Shown: positions 1,736 to 26,815, counted from the first letter of the stretch. The stretch is DNA of 32,943 nt from Thermoplasmata archaeon (GCA_021161865.1 JAGGZU010000067.1:1-32943); one strand, 5' to 3'. Numbers and translations are program-made. Notes: generated by a model from the sequence alone, not told the origin.

Positions 1736-2485
1736 ATGCGGGTTGCAGCTTACATAATAGAGGAGTTAACAAAATATCCACTTCACTTCGCACTCATAGA
1801 CCCAGATAAACAGGATGCTGAAAAGGCTGGACACCTTGCCTCGATTGCTGAAAAGGCTGGTAGCAGCGTCATAATGGTTGGTGGTTCAACCATTGCATCA
1901 CAGCAGCAGGTTGATGAAGCCGTTAAAGCGGTAAAAGAAGAATGTAATCTACCCGTTGTTCTTTTCCCATCTGCAGCAAAATTCCTCAGCAGATATGCGG
2001 ATGCCATATTCTTCATGAGTTTACTGAACTCAAGGAAACTCGATTACGTGATAAGGGAACACGTTAAAGGATCTTTGATAGTTAAAAGGTTTAACCTTGA
2101 ACCAATCTCAATGGGTTACATCATAGTTGAACCAGGTATGACTGCCGGAAGAGTTGGGGAAGCAGATTTAATAAAAAGAGATGACTATGAAACCGCCGTT
2201 GGGTATGCACTCGCTGCGCAATACCTTGGAATGTCACTTGTTTATCTTGAAGCAGGCTCTGGGGCATCTCAGGCTGTACCAAATAGGATGATAACAGATG
2301 TAAAAGAGATGATAGATATACCTCTCATTGTAGGCGGTGGAATAAGAGATGCTGCCACTGCAAAGGAGAAGGTGTTGGCTGGTGCAGACATAATAGTTAC
2401 AGGAACGGCGTTAGAGGAGAAGGGAGACCCAGATAAGACTCTTTCAGATATTGTAAAGAAGATAAGGAGCTGCAGAAGAACATGA
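1736..2485 (+). CDS. Geranylgeranylglyceryl phosphate synthase (GGGPS/PcrB family)
   Basis: HFALIDPDK start region, GYIIVEPGMTAGRVGEAD, YLEAGSGA, LIVGGGIRDAATAKEKVLAGADIIVTGTALEE. Confidence 0.93.
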   Translation: MRVAAYIIEELTKYPLHFALIDPDKQDAEKAGHLASIAEKAGSSVIMVGGSTIASQQQVDEAVKAVKEECNLPVVLFPSAAKFLSRYADAIFFMSLLNSRKLDYVIREHVKGSLIVKRFNLEPISMGYIIVEPGMTAGRVGEADLIKRDDYETAVGYALAAQYLGMSLVYLEAGSGASQAVPNRMITDVKEMIDIPLIVGGGIRDAATAKEKVLAGADIIVTGTALEEKGDPDKTLSDIVKKIRSCRRT

Positions 2486-3045
2486 AAATAATCGTTGGCA
2501 TATGTGGGGCATCAGGTGTAAAGTATGGTGTAAGACTTGTTGAGGTTTTACATCAACTGAAAATTGAAACTCATTTGATAGTCTCTGATGCCGCAAAAAA
2601 GATAATGGAACATGAAACCAAAATTACTGAAGAAAAACTAAGCAAGATCACCAGCAGGATTTACGACAACAAAGACTTTTTTTCAGCACCAGCAAGTGGG
2701 TCATTCCAAATAGATGCAATGATAATAGCACCATGCAGCATAAAAACACTCTCCGCAATAGCAAACGGTTACACAGACACACTTATCTCAAGAGCGGCAA
2801 TATGTTGTCTTAAAGAAAACAAACCACTGGTTCTCGTTCCTAGAGAGACACCTCTTGATTTAGCGACCTTGAGGAACATGGTGAAAGCAAAAGAAGCTGG
2901 TGCAATCATACTGCCAGCTATGCCTGCATTCTACCATAAACCAAAAACCATAGACGACATGATTGACTTCATCGTTGGGAAAATACTGGACCAAATAGGA
3001 GTTAAACACACTCTTTTCACTCGCTGGGAGGATGTAAAAAACTAG
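2482..3045 (+). CDS. ubiX: UbiX family flavin prenyltransferase
   Basis: GICGASGVKYGVRL, LVLVPRETPLDLATLRNMVKAKEAGAIILPAMPAFYHKPKTIDDMIDFIVGKILDQIG; ATGA overlap with the upstream gene. Confidence 0.93.
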   Translation: MKIIVGICGASGVKYGVRLVEVLHQLKIETHLIVSDAAKKIMEHETKITEEKLSKITSRIYDNKDFFSAPASGSFQIDAMIIAPCSIKTLSAIANGYTDTLISRAAICCLKENKPLVLVPRETPLDLATLRNMVKAKEAGAIILPAMPAFYHKPKTIDDMIDFIVGKILDQIGVKHTLFTRWEDVKN

Positions 3046-3138: not shown

Positions 3139-3951
3139 ATGATAAAAAAACCAACTGTATCGACAAAAAAACTATGGTTACTCCTAACCGTCTCAGCGGT
3201 TACACTAATAGTTTTTAGAATAACAGATGATTTTAACATAAAATGGTTTGCGGTCACCATATGGGCTGCATCTCTGATTATATTCGTATTTCTCCACAGC
3301 AAACTACTCTTTGGACTAAAAAATGGAATAATCTTCTTCATCGTCTCCATGTTGACAGCTGGAGCCTTTGAATACGCTGGTACCTCCAACCTGATACCTG
3401 GTTGCAGATACCATTACAACAGCATCATAATGGGTCCATTGTTGTTTGGCAAAATTCCATATGGTGTCCTAATAACCTGGTTTATGTTTCTTTACCTCAC
3501 AACTGTTATGGCGATACTGATTTACAAAAAATGGTTGAAAAACATAAAACATTACCATCTCGTTATCCCTCTTCTATCTGGAGCTATGATGGTGTCATGG
3601 GACCTCATAATGGACCCTGTAACAACCAAATGCATGAAAGGGTGGGTTTGGATAGACAAAGGGCTTTACTATGGAATACCCACATTCAACTTCATTGGAT
3701 GGTTTGTAATATCAAGCTTGTCCTCATACTTTTTTGTTATCTATATGAAAAGAAAAAAAGGATGGAAACCAAACATGGGTGGCGGGGAAGAAACGCTGTA
3801 CAACATCACTGTAGTTCCCTACTTGTTTGAACTACTGTCAGAGTGTTTTGATGGTTTAACATGCAACCTACTTCTAGCAGTTGCATTAGCAAGCATCACA
3901 ATGGGCTTTTTCATAATCCTGGCAATCTACCCTAAGAAGTTAAATGATTAA
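3139..3951 (+). CDS. DUF422 / CruF-like carotenoid biosynthesis membrane protein
   Basis: FEYAGTSNLIPGCRYHY, SWDLIMDPVTTKCMKGWVWIDKGLYYGIPTFNFIGWF pattern; polytopic. Confidence 0.8.
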   Translation: MIKKPTVSTKKLWLLLTVSAVTLIVFRITDDFNIKWFAVTIWAASLIIFVFLHSKLLFGLKNGIIFFIVSMLTAGAFEYAGTSNLIPGCRYHYNSIIMGPLLFGKIPYGVLITWFMFLYLTTVMAILIYKKWLKNIKHYHLVIPLLSGAMMVSWDLIMDPVTTKCMKGWVWIDKGLYYGIPTFNFIGWFVISSLSSYFFVIYMKRKKGWKPNMGGGEETLYNITVVPYLFELLSECFDGLTCNLLLAVALASITMGFFIILAIYPKKLND

Positions 3952-3978: not shown

Positions 3979-4560
3979 TTACCTTCTCTCACAGATTTTT
4001 ACAAAATTTTTGAAAACCTGCACACCATACTCTGTGTGCTCCACCTCAGGATGAAACTGCAAACCAAATATTGGTTTCTTCCTGTGTGCTATAGCCTGAA
4101 CCTCACAAGCATTTGAATGAGCAAGAACATCAAACTCTTCTGGAACAAGGGTTACCTCATCATTATGTGACGACCACACAACGCTTCTCCTTGGAACCTC
4201 AGAAAACAACTCATGCTCCTTATCAACAATGAGATCAACCCTGCCGAACTCTGGGACAACAGCAGGTTCAACCTTTCCACCAAAAAACCTTGCTATAAAC
4301 TGATGACCTGCACAGATACCTAAGATGGGAAAATCAGCATTTTCAAGGTACTCGCCGCATCTGCCTAAAGGATCTTTTAAACCTATCCTTGGTGCACCAC
4401 CTGACAGCACGATTCCATCAACCTTTTTCTCGACCAATATATCATAGGGTGTTGTGTTCGGCAGTATATGTGTCTGCACCCCAAGGTACTTCAACACCCT
4501 CCACTCCCTGTGAGTCCATTGACCGCCATTGTCTATCACATAGATTTTCAAATCCTTCAT
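3979..4560 (-). CDS. guaAA: GMP synthase subunit A (glutamine amidotransferase)
   Basis: Class I GATase motifs GICAGHQFIARFFGG and GLQFHPEVEHTEYG. Confidence 0.94.
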   Translation of the reverse strand: MKDLKIYVIDNGGQWTHREWRVLKYLGVQTHILPNTTPYDILVEKKVDGIVLSGGAPRIGLKDPLGRCGEYLENADFPILGICAGHQFIARFFGGKVEPAVVPEFGRVDLIVDKEHELFSEVPRRSVVWSSHNDEVTLVPEEFDVLAHSNACEVQAIAHRKKPIFGLQFHPEVEHTEYGVQVFKNFVKICERR

Positions 4561-16329: not shown

Positions 16330-17676
16330 TTGGAGGGGGTTTGTATCTGGATTGGTATAGATGACACGGATTCAACAAAAGGTGGCTGCACCACCTTTGT
16401 AGCCTTCACCATAATAAATCGAGTTATGGAAAGAGGGTACAACCTCATAGGTTTCCCAAGGCTTGTCAGGCTTAACCCAAATGTGCCATGGAAGACTAGA
16501 GGAAATGGAGCGGTTGCCATACATGTTGGAGTTGGCAAAGGAGGGAAAATACAGGTTGGTGAAAAACTCGATGAAAGACTGTACTCCCATCAAAAAAACA
16601 GAAGTGATGAAGTAAATATGGATGATTTAATTGATGTGGTGGAGGAGACTATTGAGGAACAAGCGTTTTTTTCTGATGAAAAAACCAACCCTGGTTTTGT
16701 TGTCTCAAAGGAGAAACCATCCCGTGAACTGTACTGGAAAGGAGTTAAAGGATTGGTTGAGCTGGATGAAGTTAAAAATTTGTTGAAAAACATGGGTGCT
16801 TTTTACAGGGGCTATAAGAAGGAACGTGGTTTGATAGGTGCAGCAGCGGCTTTGGCATGGACTCCTGATGACAGAACCTATGAATTGATTGCCTACAGAT
16901 GTAAGGAGAGATGGGGAACCGTTAGACATGTGGATGAAGACTCGGTGAAAGAGATGGATGGAAGGTTCCCTAGCACTTTCGACAATTTTGATTACCGGAA
17001 TCATCATAATAGGATTGTTCCAAACTCTCCTTGTCCTGTTTTGTATGGTATAAGAGGGGATGATATCGAGAGTCTTTTAAAGGCAAAGGATTTGGTTAAA
17101 TCCGAGAAATATTTTGGATGGCTTATCTTTGAAACCAATCAGGGTACTGATGACCATCTGCAGAAGAAAAAAATAGGCAAGGTAAAACCCTTTGAATCGG
17201 TTATTGTTGAAGGTGAAGTCATAGGTAAACCAAGGACTCTATCAGGTGGTCATGTTGTGTTCAAAATCAAAGATGAGAAAGGTGAGGTGATGGATTGTGC
17301 CGCCTATGAACCTACAAAGGAGTTCAGGAATGTGATAAAACAACTTGAAATAGGTGACCTCGTTGAGGTGTATGGCGGAGTGAGAGCAGAGCCTTTCACC
17401 ATAAACCTTGAGAAAATCAATGTTAAGAAGACTGTAGAGGTGAAAAAAAAGGTTGAAAACCCTATTTGCCCCCGGTGCGGTAAACACATGAAATCCATTG
17501 GAAGGGAGGCGGGTTATCGTTGCATCAGATGTGGTTTAGAGGTGGATGAAAAACAGGCGAAGTATGTTAGTGTTGAAAGGGAGTTGAAACTTGGTTTCTA
17601 TGAGGTGCCTGTTTGCGCAAGGAGGCATCTTAGCAAGCCTTTAAAAAGAATGGAAATCTATCGAATGATAAAATGA
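16330..17676 (+). CDS. tiaS: tRNA(Ile2) 2-agmatinylcytidine synthetase TiaS
   Basis: IWIGIDDTDSTKGGCTTF, GFPRLVRLNPNVPWKTRGNGAV, NSPCPVLYGIRGD, C-terminal zinc ribbon CPRCGKHMKSIGREAGYRCIRCG. Start uncertain: TTG 16330 used; track ORF starts at 16219. Confidence 0.92.
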   Translation: MEGVCIWIGIDDTDSTKGGCTTFVAFTIINRVMERGYNLIGFPRLVRLNPNVPWKTRGNGAVAIHVGVGKGGKIQVGEKLDERLYSHQKNRSDEVNMDDLIDVVEETIEEQAFFSDEKTNPGFVVSKEKPSRELYWKGVKGLVELDEVKNLLKNMGAFYRGYKKERGLIGAAAALAWTPDDRTYELIAYRCKERWGTVRHVDEDSVKEMDGRFPSTFDNFDYRNHHNRIVPNSPCPVLYGIRGDDIESLLKAKDLVKSEKYFGWLIFETNQGTDDHLQKKKIGKVKPFESVIVEGEVIGKPRTLSGGHVVFKIKDEKGEVMDCAAYEPTKEFRNVIKQLEIGDLVEVYGGVRAEPFTINLEKINVKKTVEVKKKVENPICPRCGKHMKSIGREAGYRCIRCGLEVDEKQAKYVSVERELKLGFYEVPVCARRHLSKPLKRMEIYRMIK

Positions 17677-19019
17677 GGATTCTACTGGTTGAACCAAGGT
17701 TTGAGCATGGCGTAATAACATACAAGGAGAGAAACAGTCCTTTTTCTAAAATCTACACAAATCCCTCTATCACCCTTCCCATGGTAGCTGCTGTAACCCC
17801 AGGTAACCATCAAATCAGGATTGTAAATGAGAACTATGAGGACTTAAATTTGAATGATGACTATGATTTAGTGGGTATATCCGTTTTAACCATGACTGCA
17901 TTGAGAGCCTATGAGCTTGCTGATTTATTTAGAGAAAAAGGGGTCACTGTTGTTCTCGGTGGCTATCATGTTTCTGCTTTACCTGAGGAGGCGAAGCAGC
18001 ATGCTGATAGTGTGGTTATAGGTGAGGCTGAGGAAACCTGGCCAATGGCTATAAAAGACTTTGAAAAAGGTGAACTTAAACCGTTTTATAGATCCTCCAG
18101 ACCAGAGTTGAATCATCTACCATGGCCGAGGAGGGATCTCTACTACAGTTTCATTGCAGGCGCTGTTCAGGCTGCAAGGGGTTGCCCGGTTGGTTGTGAC
18201 TTCTGCCCAACGTCACGGCTTCTTGGCAGAAGGCTGAGGAAGAGGCCTATAAAAGAGGTTGTGGAGGAGTTGAAGGCTACGCCTAACAAAGTGATTGTTT
18301 TTAGAGACGCAAGTTTAACTGCAGATCCAAACTACTCAAAGGCATTATTTAAAGCTATGAAAGGTTTGAATAAAAGATGGATTGCAAACGGTAACATAAA
18401 CGTTCTCTGCAGAGATGACGAATTCCTTAGACTCGCTAAAGAGTCTGGATGCGTTCAATGGTTTATAGGTTTAGAATCATTGTCCAAAGAGACTTTGAAA
18501 AACATTCATAAAACAACAAACGTGGGGATAGTAGAAAAATACGGGGAATGTATTAAGAAACTTCATAGGTATGGTATGGCGGTGTTTGGTGGACTCATCT
18601 TCGGTTTCGATGAGGACACACCTGATGTTTTTGAAACAACATATGAGGCGTTGGAGGAATGGCAGATAGACGCTGCAGAGTTCAACATCCTCACCCCTTA
18701 CCCTGGAACCACGATATATGAACGTTTTGAGAGAGAAGGTAGGATACTCACAAAGGATTGGTCAAAATATAGTCAAGCTCATGTTGTTTTTCAACCAAAA
18801 AGTATGAGTGTTGAGGAACTACTTGATGGCTACAGTTGGATATCAAAAAGGTTTTACTCGTTTTATGGGTGTATAAAAAGGATTCTTAACCATTTAGGTT
18901 ACAGTGGAAAATGGGGTTACTCTCCCTCTTCTTTGTCAATCGCAGCCACCAACATGGCGTTAAGGAGTTACTACATGAGGGAGAGAAGAAGGATAGAGAA
19001 GGAAAAACATATTTCTTGA
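17673..19019 (+). CDS. B12-binding domain radical SAM protein
   Basis: N-terminal cobalamin-binding-like VLGGYHVSALPEEA...GEAEETWP; radical SAM motif AARGCPVGCDFCPTS (CxxxCxxC). Confidence 0.9.
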   Translation: MRILLVEPRFEHGVITYKERNSPFSKIYTNPSITLPMVAAVTPGNHQIRIVNENYEDLNLNDDYDLVGISVLTMTALRAYELADLFREKGVTVVLGGYHVSALPEEAKQHADSVVIGEAEETWPMAIKDFEKGELKPFYRSSRPELNHLPWPRRDLYYSFIAGAVQAARGCPVGCDFCPTSRLLGRRLRKRPIKEVVEELKATPNKVIVFRDASLTADPNYSKALFKAMKGLNKRWIANGNINVLCRDDEFLRLAKESGCVQWFIGLESLSKETLKNIHKTTNVGIVEKYGECIKKLHRYGMAVFGGLIFGFDEDTPDVFETTYEALEEWQIDAAEFNILTPYPGTTIYERFEREGRILTKDWSKYSQAHVVFQPKSMSVEELLDGYSWISKRFYSFYGCIKRILNHLGYSGKWGYSPSSLSIAATNMALRSYYMRERRRIEKEKHIS

Positions 19020-19024
19020 CAAAT

Positions 19025-19771
19025 TTATTCCTTTTTACCTATAACTGCTACATACCCGGGGTTTCTCTCAGTGGTTTTAATCATTCTCAACCATGAGGTT
19101 AAGAAAGAAAACAGTCTTCTACTTAAATTCCTGTTCAGGAAGAGAGAAAACAGTTTAATCCAAGACCATGGATGTAAAGCCTTTAAACCATCTATTATGT
19201 TGATGTCTGGTTTCACCACCTCCACCTGATGTACGTTGTAACGTTTAAGGAGTTTCATGAAATCCTGAAAAACAATGAGGTTAAGTTTCATACCATATAG
19301 TTTACTAAGTTTTTCCTTGGTTTGCTCGTCCGGTTTATCAAAGTAGATAGATGTGGTTATCGCAAGGAAACCTTTATTCTTCAACACTCTTGTAAACTCT
19401 TTTATGCATTTCTCTACATCATCAACAAAGGGGAGAACATCCTCACATAACACTGCATCAAAAACCTCATCTTTGAAGGGTAAACCGGTTAAATCTCCAA
19501 CAATTAGCTGACTCACTGATCCTTTCGCTTTTGATATAAACCTCCTGTTCTTATCAAGGCCAAAGAGTTGACAATCTATTTCTTTAGATAGAATATTCAA
19601 TGTTTTACCTGTACCACACCCTGCGTCAAGCACCACTGGTCTTTTGTTTTTGAAAACAAGATGTTTTAGTATAGTCTTTGTTGTTTTACTACCTCCAAGA
19701 TGTGTAGTCTCTCCAACATAATCCATTATATCCTGATAACTTAAATCAGGAGATTTTTTCAAGAGGAACAT
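19025..19771 (-). CDS. Class I SAM-dependent methyltransferase
   Basis: VVLDAGCGTGKTLNILSKEIDCQLFGLDKNRRFI ... FDAVLCEDVLPFVDDVEKCIKEFTRVLKNKGFLAIT. Confidence 0.85.
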   Translation of the reverse strand: MFLLKKSPDLSYQDIMDYVGETTHLGGSKTTKTILKHLVFKNKRPVVLDAGCGTGKTLNILSKEIDCQLFGLDKNRRFISKAKGSVSQLIVGDLTGLPFKDEVFDAVLCEDVLPFVDDVEKCIKEFTRVLKNKGFLAITTSIYFDKPDEQTKEKLSKLYGMKLNLIVFQDFMKLLKRYNVHQVEVVKPDINIIDGLKALHPWSWIKLFSLFLNRNLSRRLFSFLTSWLRMIKTTERNPGYVAVIGKKE

Positions 19772-19774
19772 GCA

Positions 19775-20464
19775 TCAAGTACCCTCTCTTTTTATCTCTT
19801 TAGCTGGAACACCAACGTAAACCTTTCCCTTTTCCAGTCTCTGATTCTTTTTAACGAAACTAAGGGCTCCTAGGATTGTGTCATCCTCTAAAACTGCTCC
19901 TGCGGAAACAAGGCTTCCTCCACCAACCGTTACATTCTTGCCTAAAACCGTTTTTTTCAGAATCAGTTTGTTGCCCTCTATCGAATGACAGAGGACTATG
20001 CTGTTTCCACCTATCACACAGTCATCCCCTATACTTATCAGCAATGGATCAGGTATGTCCCCAGCAATGACACAGTTTCTACCAACATCTGCCCCAGCGA
20101 GTTTAAGACAAACCAGTCTGCTGATCTCATGTGGAATCATGATTAAATCGAAGAATCGTCCGCACATTCTGAAAAGCATGTAACTTAAACCCCATGAAAC
20201 AACCGGTGAACTAACCCTGTCAAGGTCGAAAACACCCTCTTTAACTCCTTTTTTAAACAACCTAAAAAACAGGGTAGCCTCCAGCAGGAAAACCAGGATG
20301 TAAAGTAGAAGCAGAGCTGCAAAAACAAAGGGTATCAGCATCTTATACGTCAAAACAAGGTTGAAAACATGGGATATGATAAAACCAACTGGTAGAAGAG
20401 GTATAGCTAATAAAAGAATGAATAGCAGAATATAAGAAGTGTAGTTTAGGTTTGTTCTCATCAT
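19775..20464 (-). CDS. Membrane-anchored left-handed beta-helix (hexapeptide) acyltransferase-like protein
   Basis: Two hydrophobic N-terminal segments followed by hexapeptide-like repeats (ADVGRNCVIAG, ISIGDDCVIGGNSIV, TVLGKNVTVGGGSLVSAGAVLEDDTILGALS) and YVGVPAKEI. Confidence 0.8.
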   Translation of the reverse strand: MMRTNLNYTSYILLFILLLAIPLLPVGFIISHVFNLVLTYKMLIPFVFAALLLLYILVFLLEATLFFRLFKKGVKEGVFDLDRVSSPVVSWGLSYMLFRMCGRFFDLIMIPHEISRLVCLKLAGADVGRNCVIAGDIPDPLLISIGDDCVIGGNSIVLCHSIEGNKLILKKTVLGKNVTVGGGSLVSAGAVLEDDTILGALSFVKKNQRLEKGKVYVGVPAKEIKREGT

Positions 20465-21802
20465 TTCAATCCCTCAACTTTGGATAAAACCACAGGTACA
20501 TTGTTTTCCAGTTTTTTCACTTGTTTTATTTTTATCTCCACATGCTCACCAAGTTTATACTTAAAATCCTTTTCTATGCCCTCAAAATGTTTTTTATACG
20601 TTTCCCACTGGTTGCTCTCTACAGCAACCAGTATCTCCATCTCATCTAAACTGTTCTGTACAATCTGAAACCTCTCTACATTTAAACCTTTTTTAACGTA
20701 ACTGCAGATAATGCTTGTGAAATAAAACGGGGAGAGTATTCTACCATCCAATGTAAAAACCGGGTCACATCTCCTACCCTCTATCTCAGAAATCAAAGGT
20801 GTTTCTCTACCGCACACGCAATCCACTTCAACGTTTTTTGCTGTATCATTCATACCGATGTACCTTAAAACAGGTGTTGCCTCCCCATACAACCTGGTCA
20901 CAACAACACTTCCTCTTTCGCCGTAATCAACTGGTTCACCATCTCTACCAAGGAGTTCAACATGCACAAGCTCAGAGTGAACATGGTACCTGCCCTCTCT
21001 ACACTGGAAGGCTACTGTTCCAGCTTCGGTGGAGGAGTACACATCAAACAGCTTGACATTAAATGCTTCTTCTATAAAATCTCTGGTTTTTTTGTCCAAA
21101 AGGGTTCCTGAAGTGGCTATGCACTTTGGTTTTACTGTTTCACCGTAACCATTTTTTTTTAAGGAACGCTAAACCTTTAAGCATAGGTGGGTAACCACCT
21201 ATGAAATCTGGTTTGAACCTACTGATTTTTTGCATTAAACTCAAAGCATCCTCTTTTACATCCAGGGTTTGAAAATTCTTGGTGTTGAAGAACAAGTTTA
21301 AACCTGAAAAAAACGTGTTCGTAAGGTAAGCGTTTTCTGGTCCACCTGGTGAAAAATCACCTATAATCGTTATTTTATCCTTCCTCCAATTTACCCCATG
21401 CTCAGATAGCTCCTCGGCAAAACCCTGCAGACATCTCAAAGCAGTGTACGTGTCATTCCATATAACAAGCGGTTGGCCTGTTGAACCAGAGGTACTTGCC
21501 TGAAAAATCTTTTTTACGTTGATGGTCTCTGGGAGTAAATCGTTTGGAGATGCTTTTACAAAGTCATCTCTCGTCACAATAGGTAGTTTATCGATGTCTT
21601 CTAAACCTTTTATATCAGATGGGTTTAAACCCTTCTCCCTGTATTTTTCCCTGTAAAACTTAGTTTTAAAGGCACATTCAACGACTTTTTTTAATGCCTT
21701 ATCCTGATATTTTTTAATCCTTTCTCTACCGAGTTTTCTTGTTAAATCCCTGTCGAAAAGGTAGCTTTTCGCTATCTTCATGGTTGATGTTAAATCAAGC
21801 AT
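20461..21802 (-). pseudogene. PaaK-like phenylacetate-CoA ligase/adenylate-forming enzyme, reading frame interrupted (ORFs 21140-21802 and 20461-21099)
   Basis: N-terminal ORF has YREKG and the ATP-binding motif STSGSTGQPLVIWND; C-terminal ORF has YSSTEAG. The frames join across an A9 run (minus strand) to give LKKNGYGETVKPKCIATSGTLLDKKTRDF. Confidence 0.8.
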
Positions 21803-22376
21803 CTCTGTTCAACCTCTTACTGAGGATAACAGACTCCCAGAAAAACGGATGCCTTAAGATTTTTTTAATAACAAAATCTTCTGGTACAATCCCTCTTGGA
21901 TCGTATCTGCTTATGTTTCTAAATATTATTCTCGCATCCGATTTAGCGGTTTTCATAATGTTTTCGAATACTTCTTCAAGCGCCTCCACCCCAAGAGAAA
22001 CCATTATCACATCAAACCCTGATAAATCGTGGTTTACACCGTCTCCAAACATTATTCTTATTCTTGTTGAAGGATTTTTTTTGTAACGTTGCACATACTT
22101 TTTTGCGTTTTTAACCGCAACCAAATCCACATCTATTCCAACTACATCTGCACCTGTTAACTCAGCTATTATAAAGGATGTATATGGCATGGAACCGCAG
22201 CCTATTTGAATAAACTTGTCCTCTTTTTTTATTTTAACAACATCTATCTCTTTTCTTATCACAGGTTCAGAGTAGTTGTTGATCACTACCTCCGCCAGAT
22301 TGGGAGAGTAGGTTGAGATGTACTCCCAGATTATGAAGGATAACCCTGCCAGCTTTCTTGCAAGTTTTTCTACCAT
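21795..22376 (-). CDS. SAM-dependent methyltransferase-like protein, possibly nicotianamine-synthase-like
   Basis: FIQIGCGSMPYTSFIIAELTGADVVGIDVDLVAVKNAKKYV ... GFDVIMVSLGV; ATG 22376 preferred over GTG 22388. Confidence 0.65.
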   Translation of the reverse strand: MVEKLARKLAGLSFIIWEYISTYSPNLAEVVINNYSEPVIRKEIDVVKIKKEDKFIQIGCGSMPYTSFIIAELTGADVVGIDVDLVAVKNAKKYVQRYKKNPSTRIRIMFGDGVNHDLSGFDVIMVSLGVEALEEVFENIMKTAKSDARIIFRNISRYDPRGIVPEDFVIKKILRHPFFWESVILSKRLNRDA

Positions 22377-22378
22377 TT

Positions 22379-23398
22379 TCACATCCACCTCACAGGAAAA
22401 AACATTCCAGTTGCTCTCATCAAAACATCAACCCCTCTTGAATCAATGTTTATCAGGGTTTTTTGGATTAAATTAAGGAAAATGAGTTTCTTTTTATGTC
22501 TTTTAACCCAAATCTTCTGGTAAAGATCCAGGTTGCTGACTCCGTCAAGGTGTTTCTCTATCACCTCAGACGCCAACTCTGCATCCTCTACACTCTGAAA
22601 AACAGGGACACCGACAACCGGTTGCCCATTCCCTGCTGAACCAATTGCAAGCCAGTTTTTGCCAAAACATCTGTTCGCTGTAGAGAGAGGTGTTTGCCCA
22701 TGGAACTCTTCAACTATTTCATGGTTTTTGAAGGATTTTATTGTGTTAACTGAAAACAGTCTTTTTTTCCAATCCCTGTTTTTTTCTACTGAAAAGATAC
22801 CGACTTCCATCCTTTTTTCCCCAATTGGCATCATCCATGTGAATAAACCCTTTGCGTTTTCGTTGTCCACCACAACACCTGTTTCTCTCTCCCCCATTGT
22901 TTTTATTTCACATGCATGTACATCAGCTATAAGACTGTTTTTTACTCCAAGCTGATTCCTTAAACTTCCCCTGTCGGCTCCGCATGCCAGAACCATGATT
23001 TTAAAGGTTACTGTTTCATTCCCTAAACTTATCTTGTTTTTTTCTAAATCTACTATTTTTTCCACACTAACCCCTGTTAGTATCCTTTTTCTATCCGATA
23101 TTTTTTCCATGAAATCCTTTTCTATGTCGCTTGTTTTCATTGAGTAACCTTTGATGTCTGTGGATATCTTGTAACCATGGGCTGAGATTATGTCAACTTG
23201 ATCTAAAAAATCAAGGATTATGTCGCTGTCAGGGTTTATTTTTTTGAAACACTCTTCGCTGACCGCTCTGAACCCTTTGTTTCCAATAGTTTTTTTATTG
23301 TCTACCGTTAGAAAGTTTATTCCTTTTTTATCCAGTAACTGGGAGAGGTAGAGGCCTGATATCCCCCCTCCAACTACAACAACGTCAACCTCTTTCAT
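22379..23398 (-). CDS. FAD-dependent oxidoreductase (geranylgeranyl reductase/UbiH-like flavoprotein)
   Basis: N-terminal dinucleotide-binding VDVVVVGGGISGLYLSQLLDKKGINFLTVD; internal MVLACGADRGSLRNQLG; LAIGSAGNGQPVVGVP. Confidence 0.8.
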   Translation of the reverse strand: MKEVDVVVVGGGISGLYLSQLLDKKGINFLTVDNKKTIGNKGFRAVSEECFKKINPDSDIILDFLDQVDIISAHGYKISTDIKGYSMKTSDIEKDFMEKISDRKRILTGVSVEKIVDLEKNKISLGNETVTFKIMVLACGADRGSLRNQLGVKNSLIADVHACEIKTMGERETGVVVDNENAKGLFTWMMPIGEKRMEVGIFSVEKNRDWKKRLFSVNTIKSFKNHEIVEEFHGQTPLSTANRCFGKNWLAIGSAGNGQPVVGVPVFQSVEDAELASEVIEKHLDGVSNLDLYQKIWVKRHKKKLIFLNLIQKTLINIDSRGVDVLMRATGMFFPVRWM

Positions 23399-23404
23399 GG
23401 TTTT

Positions 23405-24538
23405 TCACCCAATCGGTGGTAACTCCTCCGGTGGCACCTTACCTGATGCCCATGCAACCTCTCTTCTAACCATCCAATCCGTTTCCCTCTTCATTTTATC
23501 CTTCGTCAGATTTTTCCAGTAAACTATAGCATCCCAGAGGCTCCCCTTATTATCATCAACCTCTTTCAACCTTGTTTTTGAGGTATCCCAAACAGGTTTC
23601 TCAGAGTGAAAGGAGCTTAAAACAACCCTTCCTCTCCCGTATGTTTCTGCAACCATAGCCGGATGGTTTGGTATATTGAGGGGTATTATCTCTTCTGTTT
23701 TTTCCCAGCAGGGTTGTTTCCAAGAAGTCTGTACAAGTCTCAGGGGTAAATCAAGAGGATTTTTGTTTTTCTTTAGAAACTTCAGATTTTCTCCTAAAAC
23801 CGTTTTAATGTATCTACGCCAGCATGTGAAACGCCACTTATGTATTCTGTATCCATTAAACACCTCTTTATCGGGGAAATATGCTAAAACATCTGAGTTT
23901 TTTTCTGGTATTAAAGCTGGTCCACCTATCCATCTCACTAAACAAAAGTTGTTTTTGTAGTCTCTGAAAATCGGGTGTTTCCTGTTTATCTTAACCTTAA
24001 TCGGGATCCCGCCTGTTGTTTGTTCTCCTGATACCGTGGTGTTCATACCTGTGTAGTAAACATAAGCAGACTCTCCAGGGTTTCCACCTAAGATTTGATC
24101 AAAGGGTGGTATTGATATATTCCATAGAAGCTTGGTTTTCAACACAAATGCTTTGCCTCTTTCGCTGTTGGAGAGAATTTCAGAGAAGGTCTTTGGATGG
24201 TTAAGTAGTTTGCAGAAGAGTAATGCACCAGCACAGTGAGCCACCACCCCACCGCCTTTTTTAACAAAATGGTTTAAAGTGTTTTTCCATTTATACGCTG
24301 CAGTTGGTGAAAAAAAGGATTTTAAGTATATTAGGAATGTGTCGGCGGCTGGTATTATGACAACATCAAACTTCTCTGGTTTCAAATCTTTTATCGTATC
24401 ATGCCAGTCAAGTTTTTTTACCTTTATATTGTACAACCCATTTCTCCATTTATATCCATCCAGTATGTCGATGAAGTCTTGGAAACTCCAGCTGAAAAAG
24501 TAGAAGTCGGTTAACACAGCCACGTTTATGATGGTCAT
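23405..24538 (-). CDS. BPL_N-type glutamine amidotransferase-like protein
   Basis: FDVVIIPAADTFLIYLKSF ... VKKGGGVVAHCAGALLFCKLL nucleophile-elbow-like Cys; ATG 24538 overlaps upstream stop (ATGA). Confidence 0.6.
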   Translation of the reverse strand: MTIINVAVLTDFYFFSWSFQDFIDILDGYKWRNGLYNIKVKKLDWHDTIKDLKPEKFDVVIIPAADTFLIYLKSFFSPTAAYKWKNTLNHFVKKGGGVVAHCAGALLFCKLLNHPKTFSEILSNSERGKAFVLKTKLLWNISIPPFDQILGGNPGESAYVYYTGMNTTVSGEQTTGGIPIKVKINRKHPIFRDYKNNFCLVRWIGGPALIPEKNSDVLAYFPDKEVFNGYRIHKWRFTCWRRYIKTVLGENLKFLKKNKNPLDLPLRLVQTSWKQPCWEKTEEIIPLNIPNHPAMVAETYGRGRVVLSSFHSEKPVWDTSKTRLKEVDDNKGSLWDAIVYWKNLTKDKMKRETDWMVRREVAWASGKVPPEELPPIG

Positions 24539-25098
24539 GCCTTTGACGACCTCCACCGGTAAATTTCTTCGCAGAATTCATCGCCTTTTGCAATCGATTT
24601 TTTTAGAATAAAACTGAGATTAGGGTTGTATTTTTCAAAGAAAACCTCATCACTTTTACATAGGTAAGGAGAGAGTTCTGAGATGTTGTATTTGTTGAAA
24701 AGGTTGCAGTAGGCGCATCTTTTGACAATTATCTTTGCCTCTTCATCGTTCTCTTCAACGATGCTGTAGTCGCTGTATCTAAAGTACTTGGAGTTCTTTA
24801 ATAGGTTCAGGTACTCTTTTAACCCTTCTCCTTTTTTTAGTTTCGGTAAACTTTTTGATATATCAAGGACACCGCATTCAACGATTATGTTACCAGCTAC
24901 TTCAATGGCTTCTTTTTTACTGATTTTTTCTAAAAGATGCCTGTAAATGTGGATAATGGGAAGAAACTGTTTCTCCACCTCATCCTTTTTTTTGTTAAAC
25001 GCTGTTTTCTGTAATGTTTTAATAAGGATTACAACTGTAGCTGTCAACGGCAGTTTTTTTCTTATTTCTCTGAAAGCTATTTTAGCCTCATCAATCAT
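24535..25098 (-). CDS. L-2-amino-thiazoline-4-carboxylate hydrolase-like protein
   Basis: VKRCAYCNLFNKYNISELSPYLCKSDEVFFEKYNPNLSFILKKSIAKGDEFCEEIYRW resembles the family pattern (C-x-Y...LCxxD...GxxxCxFxxxx). Confidence 0.6.
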   Translation of the reverse strand: MIDEAKIAFREIRKKLPLTATVVILIKTLQKTAFNKKKDEVEKQFLPIIHIYRHLLEKISKKEAIEVAGNIIVECGVLDISKSLPKLKKGEGLKEYLNLLKNSKYFRYSDYSIVEENDEEAKIIVKRCAYCNLFNKYNISELSPYLCKSDEVFFEKYNPNLSFILKKSIAKGDEFCEEIYRWRSSKA

Positions 25099-25793
25099 TT
25101 TTCACTCACTTTTCCAACCACGATTTCAACAGGGAATGGAAACATTTTTGTTCTAGTTATCCTCCTCCTTATTATCCTGAAACCGTTTTTTTCCACCAGC
25201 GGAGACAGATAAATAGGTCTGCTTGAGGGTCTATAACCTAACACAGTTGGCCAGAAAGGGTATACTATCTCGTAGAGGTATCTACCAGCCTTCAAGAGTC
25301 CTTCCCCTTCTTTTGTCATAGTAGTTAGCACACATCTCCCATCTGGTTTAAGGACTCTTCTGATTTCTTGGAGCAGAACAGGCATGTCTTTTTCTTTCAG
25401 TAAATCCAGTATGAAGCTTCCGAAAACAACATCGAATGTGTTTTCCTTGTAAGGCATGTCAAGGACGTTTCCCAGAACCAGATCTGCTTTCTCCTCTAAC
25501 CCTGTTTTTTTCAATCTTTCCCAGGTTACATTATGCATTCTTGGTGAAAAGTCTATCCCATAAACTGTTCCTCCATCCACTTTGTTTATCAGTCTCTCCA
25601 GGACCCATCCTGTTCCAAAGGCTATGTCCAGTATTTTTTCTCCTTTTCTTATATCAGCAAGTTTTATAGCCTCCAGGTTTGGTATTATCTCAAATACTCC
25701 CATTATTAGATGGTAGCCTCTGCTGACGTCATCGTATTTTTTTCTGTCCCCGGTTTTTGGGAATATCACGTTTTGAACCTTTTTGAAATCCAT
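25095..25793 (-). CDS. UbiE-like class I SAM-dependent methyltransferase
   Basis: KILDIAFGTGWVLERLI, VYGIDFSPRM, LGNVLDMPYKENTFDVVFGSFILD, EIRRVLKPDGRCVLTT. Confidence 0.87.
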   Translation of the reverse strand: MDFKKVQNVIFPKTGDRKKYDDVSRGYHLIMGVFEIIPNLEAIKLADIRKGEKILDIAFGTGWVLERLINKVDGGTVYGIDFSPRMHNVTWERLKKTGLEEKADLVLGNVLDMPYKENTFDVVFGSFILDLLKEKDMPVLLQEIRRVLKPDGRCVLTTMTKEGEGLLKAGRYLYEIVYPFWPTVLGYRPSSRPIYLSPLVEKNGFRIIRRRITRTKMFPFPVEIVVGKVSEK

Positions 25794-26641
25794 TTTTCAC
25801 CTCTTGAGTAGATGTATTCAACCATTTCTTTAAGGATGATTGTGTCACCCTTTATGCCCTCTAATTCTTTTATACATGTTTCCTTTTCTTCCTTTAAAAT
25901 CTGTTTTGTTTTTTCTGCACCACAAACCTTTATCATGTTGATTTTTTTGTCCTCCTCAGTATCATTCAGGTCATCAACTATTTGATACAGTAAACCAAAA
26001 TGTTTTGCATATTCGATTATGGAGTTTCTTTCGTCAATCGGAAAGTTCGCGAGTTCAGCACCTAGGAGAGCTGAGAGGTAAAAGAGTGAACCGGTTTTTT
26101 TTACATGTATTAGAAGTATTTCTTCCTCTGAGGGTTGGCTGTAGTTTAAATCCATGAACTGTCCACCTATTGTGCCATCCATCCCTATTAGTTTTGCTGA
26201 CATTTCTATTATTGTGCTCATCAGAGAAGGTTGTGCCCCCAATCTGTTGAGTTCTTTTGATAATATTTCAAAGCCTTTTGATGCCAGTGAGACAGCAGCA
26301 AGGATAGTTGTGGATTCACCGAAGACAATGTGTGGAGATGGGTGGTTTCTTCTTGTTTTTGCGTTGTCCATGGATGGTAAATCATCGAGCATTAGAGAGG
26401 CTGTATGAAAAATCTCTACACAACATGCCGCCAGCAGTATGTTTTCTATGTCCTTCTTTTTGATTTCATATATGGCCATTGTTAAGATTGGCCGAATTCT
26501 TTTTCCTCCGGAGAAAAGCGAGTATCTTATGGTTTGGTCCAGTTTTTTTAGTTTATCCTGATCCCTTTCAGGAAATACTTCCTTTAAACGTCTGTCTACC
26601 AAGTTCTTTTTCTCCAGCAAATAAAATTTTATAGCATCCAT
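25766..26641 (-). CDS. Polyprenyl (farnesyl/geranylgeranyl) diphosphate synthase, bacterial-type FARM
   Basis: GGKRIRPIL, FARM LMLDDLPSMDNAKTRR (DDxxxxD), SARM-like LLYQIVDDLNDTEED. Confidence 0.93.
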   Translation of the reverse strand: MDAIKFYLLEKKNLVDRRLKEVFPERDQDKLKKLDQTIRYSLFSGGKRIRPILTMAIYEIKKKDIENILLAACCVEIFHTASLMLDDLPSMDNAKTRRNHPSPHIVFGESTTILAAVSLASKGFEILSKELNRLGAQPSLMSTIIEMSAKLIGMDGTIGGQFMDLNYSQPSEEEILLIHVKKTGSLFYLSALLGAELANFPIDERNSIIEYAKHFGLLYQIVDDLNDTEEDKKINMIKVCGAEKTKQILKEEKETCIKELEGIKGDTIILKEMVEYIYSRGEKWISKRFKT

Positions 26642-26741: not shown

Positions 26742-26815
26742 GCGGGTGTAGTGTAGTCTGGTTATCACTTAAGCTTGCCAAGCTTATAACCCGGGTTCAA
26801 ATCCCGGCACCCGCA
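26742..26815 (+). tRNA. tRNA-Gly (GCC)
   Basis: Acceptor GCGGGTG/CACCCGC, anticodon arm TAAGC-TTGCCAA-GCTTA, T-arm CCGGG-TTCAAAT-CCCGG; intronless, CCA not encoded. Confidence 0.95.

Follow-up and report, generated by a model that had tools for sequence, protein, structure and literature searches.

A lineage-specific ten-gene island in a Thermoprofundales archaeon that may direct the synthesis of a multiply methylated lipid or small molecule derived from a prenyl chain

The analysed stretch of DNA (Thermoplasmata archaeon, GCA_021161865.1, JAGGZU010000067.1:1-32943; 32,943 nucleotides, hereafter the window) is contig C70 of the host genome G000 (1.44 Mb, 88% complete) and holds a ~9-kb island of ten genes at 17673–26641, composed of a nine-gene minus-strand operon, whose products are termed p1–p9, and a convergent gene for a B12-binding radical S-adenosylmethionine (SAM) enzyme. 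We regard it as about an even call that this lineage-specific island encodes a pathway, independent of oxygen, to a lipid or small molecule that derives from a prenyl chain and carries several methyl groups; most likely, an anaerobic biosynthetic system found across the order is represented here by a lineage-specific variant. Since several of the island families also cluster in many relatives, a genuine pathway is probable. To our knowledge, uncultured archaea have yielded few pathways for natural products or cofactors, and no described pathway matching the operon was found in the literature searched, in agreement with the initial annotation of this DNA, which had not recognized the gene combination either.

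The island between TiaS and tRNA-Gly(GCC)

Neighbouring genes of the operon (19025–26641) overlap or lie at most 6 bp apart (from p1 to p9: −28, −4, −22, +6, −10 and −8 bp up to the PaaK gene, and −4 and +3 bp after it), which bears out the tightly coupled minus-strand run with the coordinates and overlaps initially described. The features are listed below (FAD, flavin adenine dinucleotide; NAS, nicotianamine synthase; FPP and GGPP, farnesyl and geranylgeranyl diphosphate).

17673–19019, plus strand: B12-binding radical SAM enzyme, BchE/HpnJ-like (PF04055, PF02310; CxxxCxxC at residue 171)
19025–19771, minus strand: p9, class I SAM methyltransferase, DVU_1556-like (PF08241, 75.9 bits; DAGCGTG motif)
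19775–20464, minus strand: p8, membrane-anchored left-handed beta-helix acyltransferase-like protein (PF00132, 32 bits)
20461–21099, minus strand: p7b, C-terminal part of a PaaK-like adenylate-forming enzyme (FlxY, 89.5 bits, below cut-off)
21140–21802, minus strand: p7a, N-terminal part of the PaaK-like enzyme (PaaK/FlxY matches; TSGSTG motif)
21795–22388, minus strand: p6, NAS-like SAM-dependent methyl-/aminocarboxypropyl-transferase (families, nearest structures)
22379–23398, minus strand: p5, geranylgeranyl-reductase-like FAD oxidoreductase (TIGR02032, PF05834, motifs)
23405–24556, minus strand: p4, class I glutamine-amidotransferase-fold protein (conserved triad, AlphaFold2 model)
24535–25098, minus strand: p3, PF14196 'ATC_hydrolase' protein (73 bits)
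25095–25793, minus strand: p2, UbiE-like methyltransferase of a distinct subfamily (TIGR01934, 68.5 bits)
25766–26641, minus strand: p1, trans-prenyl diphosphate synthase of the FPP/GGPP type (PF00348, 142.9 bits)
26742–26815, plus strand: tRNA-Gly(GCC), right boundary marker of the ~9-kb block, outside the pathway

The radical SAM gene is located 5 bp from p9, and there is a 4-bp overlap of its start with the TiaS stop. The tRNA-Gly(GCC) gene lies 100 bp upstream of p1, the first gene of the operon. For comparison, four genomes from the host's family, each of another genus, were used. One of them, G002, keeps the flanking order helix-turn-helix protein – TiaS – tRNA-Gly – PHP – L11 – Spt5, with a distance of only 23 bp between TiaS and tRNA-Gly. 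Since the radical SAM gene and the operon together fill the interval that measures 23 bp in G002, they form one block, and the true unit is the ten-gene island, present here and absent in G002. The initial annotation had placed all nine operon genes correctly; it had overlooked the neighbouring radical SAM gene and the tRNA-Gly, which delimit the unit, as well as the split in the PaaK gene.

The difference between the two genomes may be due to a gain here or a loss in G002. As G002 carries a p4 homologue across the tRNA-Gly, on the side opposite the operon's position, the idea that p4 was an ancestral resident around which the operon had been inserted was withdrawn. The tRNA-Gly(GCC) genes at 26742–26815 of the window and at 4032–4104 of locus L053 are flanked by differing gene content in two genera, and the site may be an insertion hot spot. 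A chance assembly, in which such a hot spot gathered unrelated genes without a common pathway, would agree with the G002 homologue across the same tRNA, with the lack of the full order in any sampled genome and with the mutual independence of the conserved gene pairs described below; it is considered very unlikely in view of the overlapping frames along the whole run and of four of the ten families co-localizing elsewhere above chance.

The PaaK gene consists of two open reading frames (ORFs) in different frames, owing to a surplus A in the A9 run at 21152–21160. After dropping one A, p7a and p7b join into a continuous sequence of 446 amino acids (aa) with the motifs TSGSTG and YSSTE. TopA and HypF, two intact genes of the window, contain A9 runs as well, and these stay in frame; the run in the PaaK gene may reflect a genuine frameshift or an isolated error of the assembly, or may be compensated by slippage.

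Order-wide co-localization of island families

The host is a member of Thermoprofundales (Marine Benthic Group D, MBG-D), Thermoplasmatota, because G037 (SG8-52-3, contig LSSG01000009) is a relative of the same order and SG8-52-3 was assigned to this group (PMC6461988). Co-localization was counted in 61 genomes, among the matches listed; counts are lower bounds due to fragmented assemblies, the genomes are related and hence non-independent, and the chance expectation is a simple estimate under uniform gene placement. Within 10 kb, the radical SAM orthologue was accompanied by a NAS-like methyltransferase in 27 of 37 cases (~0.9 by chance) and by a UbiA prenyltransferase homologue in 13 of 37 (~0.4 by chance), and UbiA was accompanied by a NAS-like methyltransferase in 25 of 39 cases (~1.1 by chance) and by a p4 homologue in 12 of 39 (~0.6 by chance). 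At a distance of 2 kb or less, 37 of the 75 listed PaaK genes were found with a radical SAM gene (~0.6 by chance). Three genomes of the host's family encode radical SAM orthologues (68–71%), all of which adjoin a NAS-like methyltransferase gene and two also a PaaK gene. All five families (radical SAM, PaaK, NAS-like methyltransferase, UbiA and p4) are found together in the loci L073, L083 and L084; the island holds four of the five, with radical SAM, NAS-like and PaaK genes within 17673–22388. A search for co-occurring families, as suggested with the initial annotation, thus recovers radical SAM, PaaK, NAS-like methyltransferase, glutaminase and UbiA genes together far above chance, and the order-wide link of PaaK, NAS-like methyltransferase and glutaminase to radical SAM and UbiA strengthens the proposal of a prenyl-linked, methylated molecule.

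The radical SAM orthologue, PaaK, the NAS-like methyltransferase and the p4 family are common to the island and the order-wide loci (L073, L083, L084). Unlike the island, the latter contain UbiA, often two radical SAM genes and a PaaK of a separate, supported clade, and are devoid of p1, p2, p3, p5, p8 and p9. No description of the order-wide loci was found in the literature searched; the recurrence of radical SAM, PaaK, NAS-like methyltransferase and UbiA genes across an abundant sediment order indicates an anaerobic system of biosynthesis that is uncharacterised and apparently conserved. The loci L071, L073, L083–L085, L087–L091, L095–L098 and others comprise one or two B12-radical SAM genes, PaaK, a NAS-like methyltransferase and one or two UbiA genes, often along with a gene for a CrtC/lipocalin-like protein of ~430 aa or with epimerase, glycosyltransferase or ketopantoate-reductase-like genes. 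Several copies of the PaaK–radical SAM pair exist per genome, in many cases in divergent orientation, including on the host contigs C8 and C101, and several radical SAM paralogues are arrayed on the 6.9-kb host contig C11 (L100).

Distribution of the operon genes

Homologues of p1 and p3 were searched in 60 relatives, p1 additionally in 395 Thermoplasmatota genomes; beyond Thermoplasmatota, one wide scan for p2 was performed with exact peptide patterns, which has limited reach. Among the 60 relatives, p1 has one true relative (50% identity), located in G037, where a p2 relative comes next and overlaps it by 4 bp. Only 2 of the 395 Thermoplasmatota genomes, this one included, have the prenyl synthase module, and because of this rarity the prenyl synthase does not head a widespread system. 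Likewise, one p3 relative (46%) was found among the 60, in G026, where an overlapping p2 relative directly precedes it. Relatives of p2 (52–57%) occur in three named genomes, the pattern scan returned only three named loci, and the third p2 relative stands alone. Gene order, which had been put forward as a check, is therefore conserved for the pairs p1–p2 (G037) and p2–p3 (G026), not for the operon as a whole.

Homologues of p4 form a recurrent cluster with arylsulfotransferase, GNAT-like (Gcn5-related N-acetyltransferase) and sulfotransferase genes at about 12–14 of 21 loci, and some carry apparent signal peptides. Loci with a p4 homologue beside sulfotransferases include L051, L060, L061, L063, L064, L066, L069, L070, L072 and L074.

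Several results weigh against the favoured reading of the island. The complete operon was found in none of the other sampled genomes, and the p1-p2-p3 module is rare and was in no other place seen together with the remaining operon genes. None of the operon ORFs encodes a UbiA prenyltransferase, which leaves the initially proposed prenyl-linked product without its coupling enzyme in the operon, and a UbiA of the order-wide subfamily gave no match at 1e-20 in the host and the four family relatives. In the PaaK tree, p7 is placed outside the core clade (support 100/100), the PaaK gene is frameshifted in the assembly, and p6 shares only ~34% identity with the NAS-like methyltransferases that adjoin the radical SAM gene of sister genomes. 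Owing to these identities and the tree, orthology of p6 and p7 to the order-wide genes was not supported, and the two are to be taken as members of the same families, not as clear orthologues. Finally, p4 may serve another process, since its homologues often adjoin sulfotransferases and some have apparent signal peptides.

Encoded proteins

In p1, both Asp-rich motifs (DDLPSMD and QIVDDLND) are intact and GGKRxRP is present, and the nearest solved structure is a GGPP synthase (2j1p); p1 is a catalytically plausible prenyl diphosphate synthase, closest to GGPP/FPP synthases; the CrtE equivalog cut-off is not reached (157 vs 460 bits). The match of p2 to the UbiE/MenG equivalogs amounts to 68.5–71 bits at cut-offs of 158–216 (TIGR01934: 68.5 vs 158). 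For p3, the PF14196 score exceeds the Pfam cut-off (73 vs 28.1 bits). An AlphaFold2 model of p3, built from two sequences with a predicted local distance difference test (pLDDT) score of 74, has TRAPP Bet3, the phenol sensor MopR and H-NOX as Foldseek neighbours at template modelling (TM) scores of ~0.5; read cautiously, the model suggests a ligand-binding protein, and 'ATC hydrolase', as it was first called, is probably a misleading family name. Prenyl synthase, geranylgeranyl-reductase-like flavoprotein, methyltransferases and adenylate-forming enzyme keep their initial assignments.

The BPL_N match of p4 is weak (16.6 bits vs cut-off 24.2). Among its homologues C108 and H317 are invariant and E319 is kept in 15 of 16, and its AlphaFold2 model matches Pdx2, HisH and CTP synthase; p4 is hence predicted to adopt the fold of class I glutaminases, complete with a Cys-His-Glu triad, and may have the corresponding activity, where the initial annotation had given a BPL_N-type glutamine-amidotransferase-like protein. 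p5 resembles geranylgeranyl-reductase/lycopene-cyclase-like FAD proteins (TIGR02032 69 bits, below cut-off; PF05834 37 bits; motifs GGGISG and FTWMMP). p6 falls below the NAS cut-off, with thermonicotianamine synthase and CntL as nearest solved structures; as it resembles their SAM-binding part, it may transfer either methyl or aminocarboxypropyl groups. p8 shows similarity to the Pls/PosA terminal domain, with N-terminal hydrophobic stretches at 5–44 and 33–71, and p9 scores 102 bits against NF045667, below the cut-off of 155. The radical SAM enzyme does not reach the BchE equivalog cut-off (104.9 vs 481 bits).

Proposed pathway and alternative explanations

Substrates, order of steps and product are suggested here from the protein families. 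p1 would supply a C15–C20 prenyl diphosphate, the chain double bonds of which could be reduced by p5. A carboxylic acid would be activated by p7 via adenylation, and an unactivated carbon might be methylated or oxidatively altered by the B12-radical SAM enzyme. Methyl groups could be added by p2, p6 and p9, with p6 possibly transferring an aminocarboxypropyl group instead, and ammonia for an amide or amine would be released by p4. p3 might bind or carry a hydrophobic or phenolic intermediate, p8 could transfer an acyl group at the membrane, and the prenyl chain would be coupled by a UbiA protein encoded elsewhere in the genome, where eight UbiA homologues lie outside the operon, four of them on one contig. 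The prenyl synthase and the tailoring genes of the island make the prenyl hypothesis testable.

The same genes could act in membrane or surface lipid tailoring, i.e. methylation, acylation, amidation and saturation of archaeal isoprenoid lipids or of a polyprenyl carrier. This is in keeping with the membrane acyltransferase-like p8, with p4 relatives near sulfotransferases, an MprF-C-like aminoacyl transferase and GNAT acyltransferases, with glycosyltransferases in some order-wide loci, and with the lipid substrates of HpnJ/HpnR-type enzymes, which are among the matches of the radical SAM enzyme. The adenylate-forming p7 has no obvious role in ether lipids, however, and the operon contains no lipid head-group gene, which leaves this explanation unlikely.

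A redox lipid had been named among the possible products and is at best a candidate; in a respiratory role it would be an electron carrier of the membrane that resembles a quinone or phenazine and bears a prenyl tail. The UbiE-like p2, UbiA in the order-wide clusters, PaaK and the geranylgeranyl-reductase-like enzyme would fit the chemistry, and a prenyl diphosphate synthase with a UbiE-like methyltransferase also recalls menaquinone and ubiquinone biosynthesis. The island differs from the latter in that the operon lacks UbiA, the window lacks genes for head-group synthesis and p2 scores far under the UbiE equivalog cut-offs; moreover, the rare distribution would be odd for a core respiratory carrier, and the word 'quinone' is absent from the Thermoprofundales genome paper (PMC6461988). 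Such a product thus appears distinctly unlikely. For methanophenazine biosynthesis, no defined gene set was found in the literature searched. A wider proposal, by which Thermoprofundales would produce prenyl-linked redox carriers of the membrane, or lipid cofactors, of an unrecognised class by B12-radical SAM chemistry, with the island as one chemical variant, is a long shot; a membrane redox carrier as product would bear on energy conservation in these archaea.

A carotenoid or chlorophyll-like pigment pathway is barely credible. Similarities to carotenoid clusters (CrtE, CrtI, lycopene cyclase, CruF) comprise the CrtE-like p1 and the lycopene-cyclase-like match of p5, along with CruF-like, CrtI-like and CrtC-like genes elsewhere in the genome. 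Phytoene/squalene synthase (PF00494), by contrast, gave 0 matches in the host (88% complete) and the four family relatives (control 7/14), and the carotenoid pathway was rejected on this ground. With the late (bacterio)chlorophyll steps (BchE, BchM, BchP, BchG, V4R-domain BchJ) the island shares the superfamilies of B12-radical SAM enzymes, methyltransferases, geranylgeranyl reductases and Bet3/V4R-like ligand-binding proteins; its matches are far under the equivalog cut-offs (BchE 105 vs 481 bits), the operon holds no pigment-specific genes and the window no tetrapyrrole genes, leaving an analogy at superfamily level only. Although no phytoene synthase was detected in the genome, a CruF-like carotenoid biosynthesis protein is encoded at 3139–3951 of the window (PF04240, 87 bits), and L113 (2382–10236 of the 10.9-kb host contig C27), with four UbiA genes, a CrtI/CrtD-like FAD protein, a CrtC-like protein and a family 2 glycosyltransferase, resembles a C50-carotenoid-type cluster.

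Compared with flexirubin/aryl-polyene clusters, p7 resembles the putative acyl-CoA ligase FlxY, whereas the operon is devoid of ketosynthase, dehydratase and carrier protein genes. Anti-phage defence was dismissed, as PADLOC gave only generic methyltransferase-domain matches to mad2. At 17–928 and 1736–3045, the window also holds, in close proximity, genes for a PF04018 undecaprenyl-phosphate-translocase-like protein, a geranylgeranylglyceryl phosphate (GGGP) synthase of the PcrB family and a UbiX-like flavoprotein.

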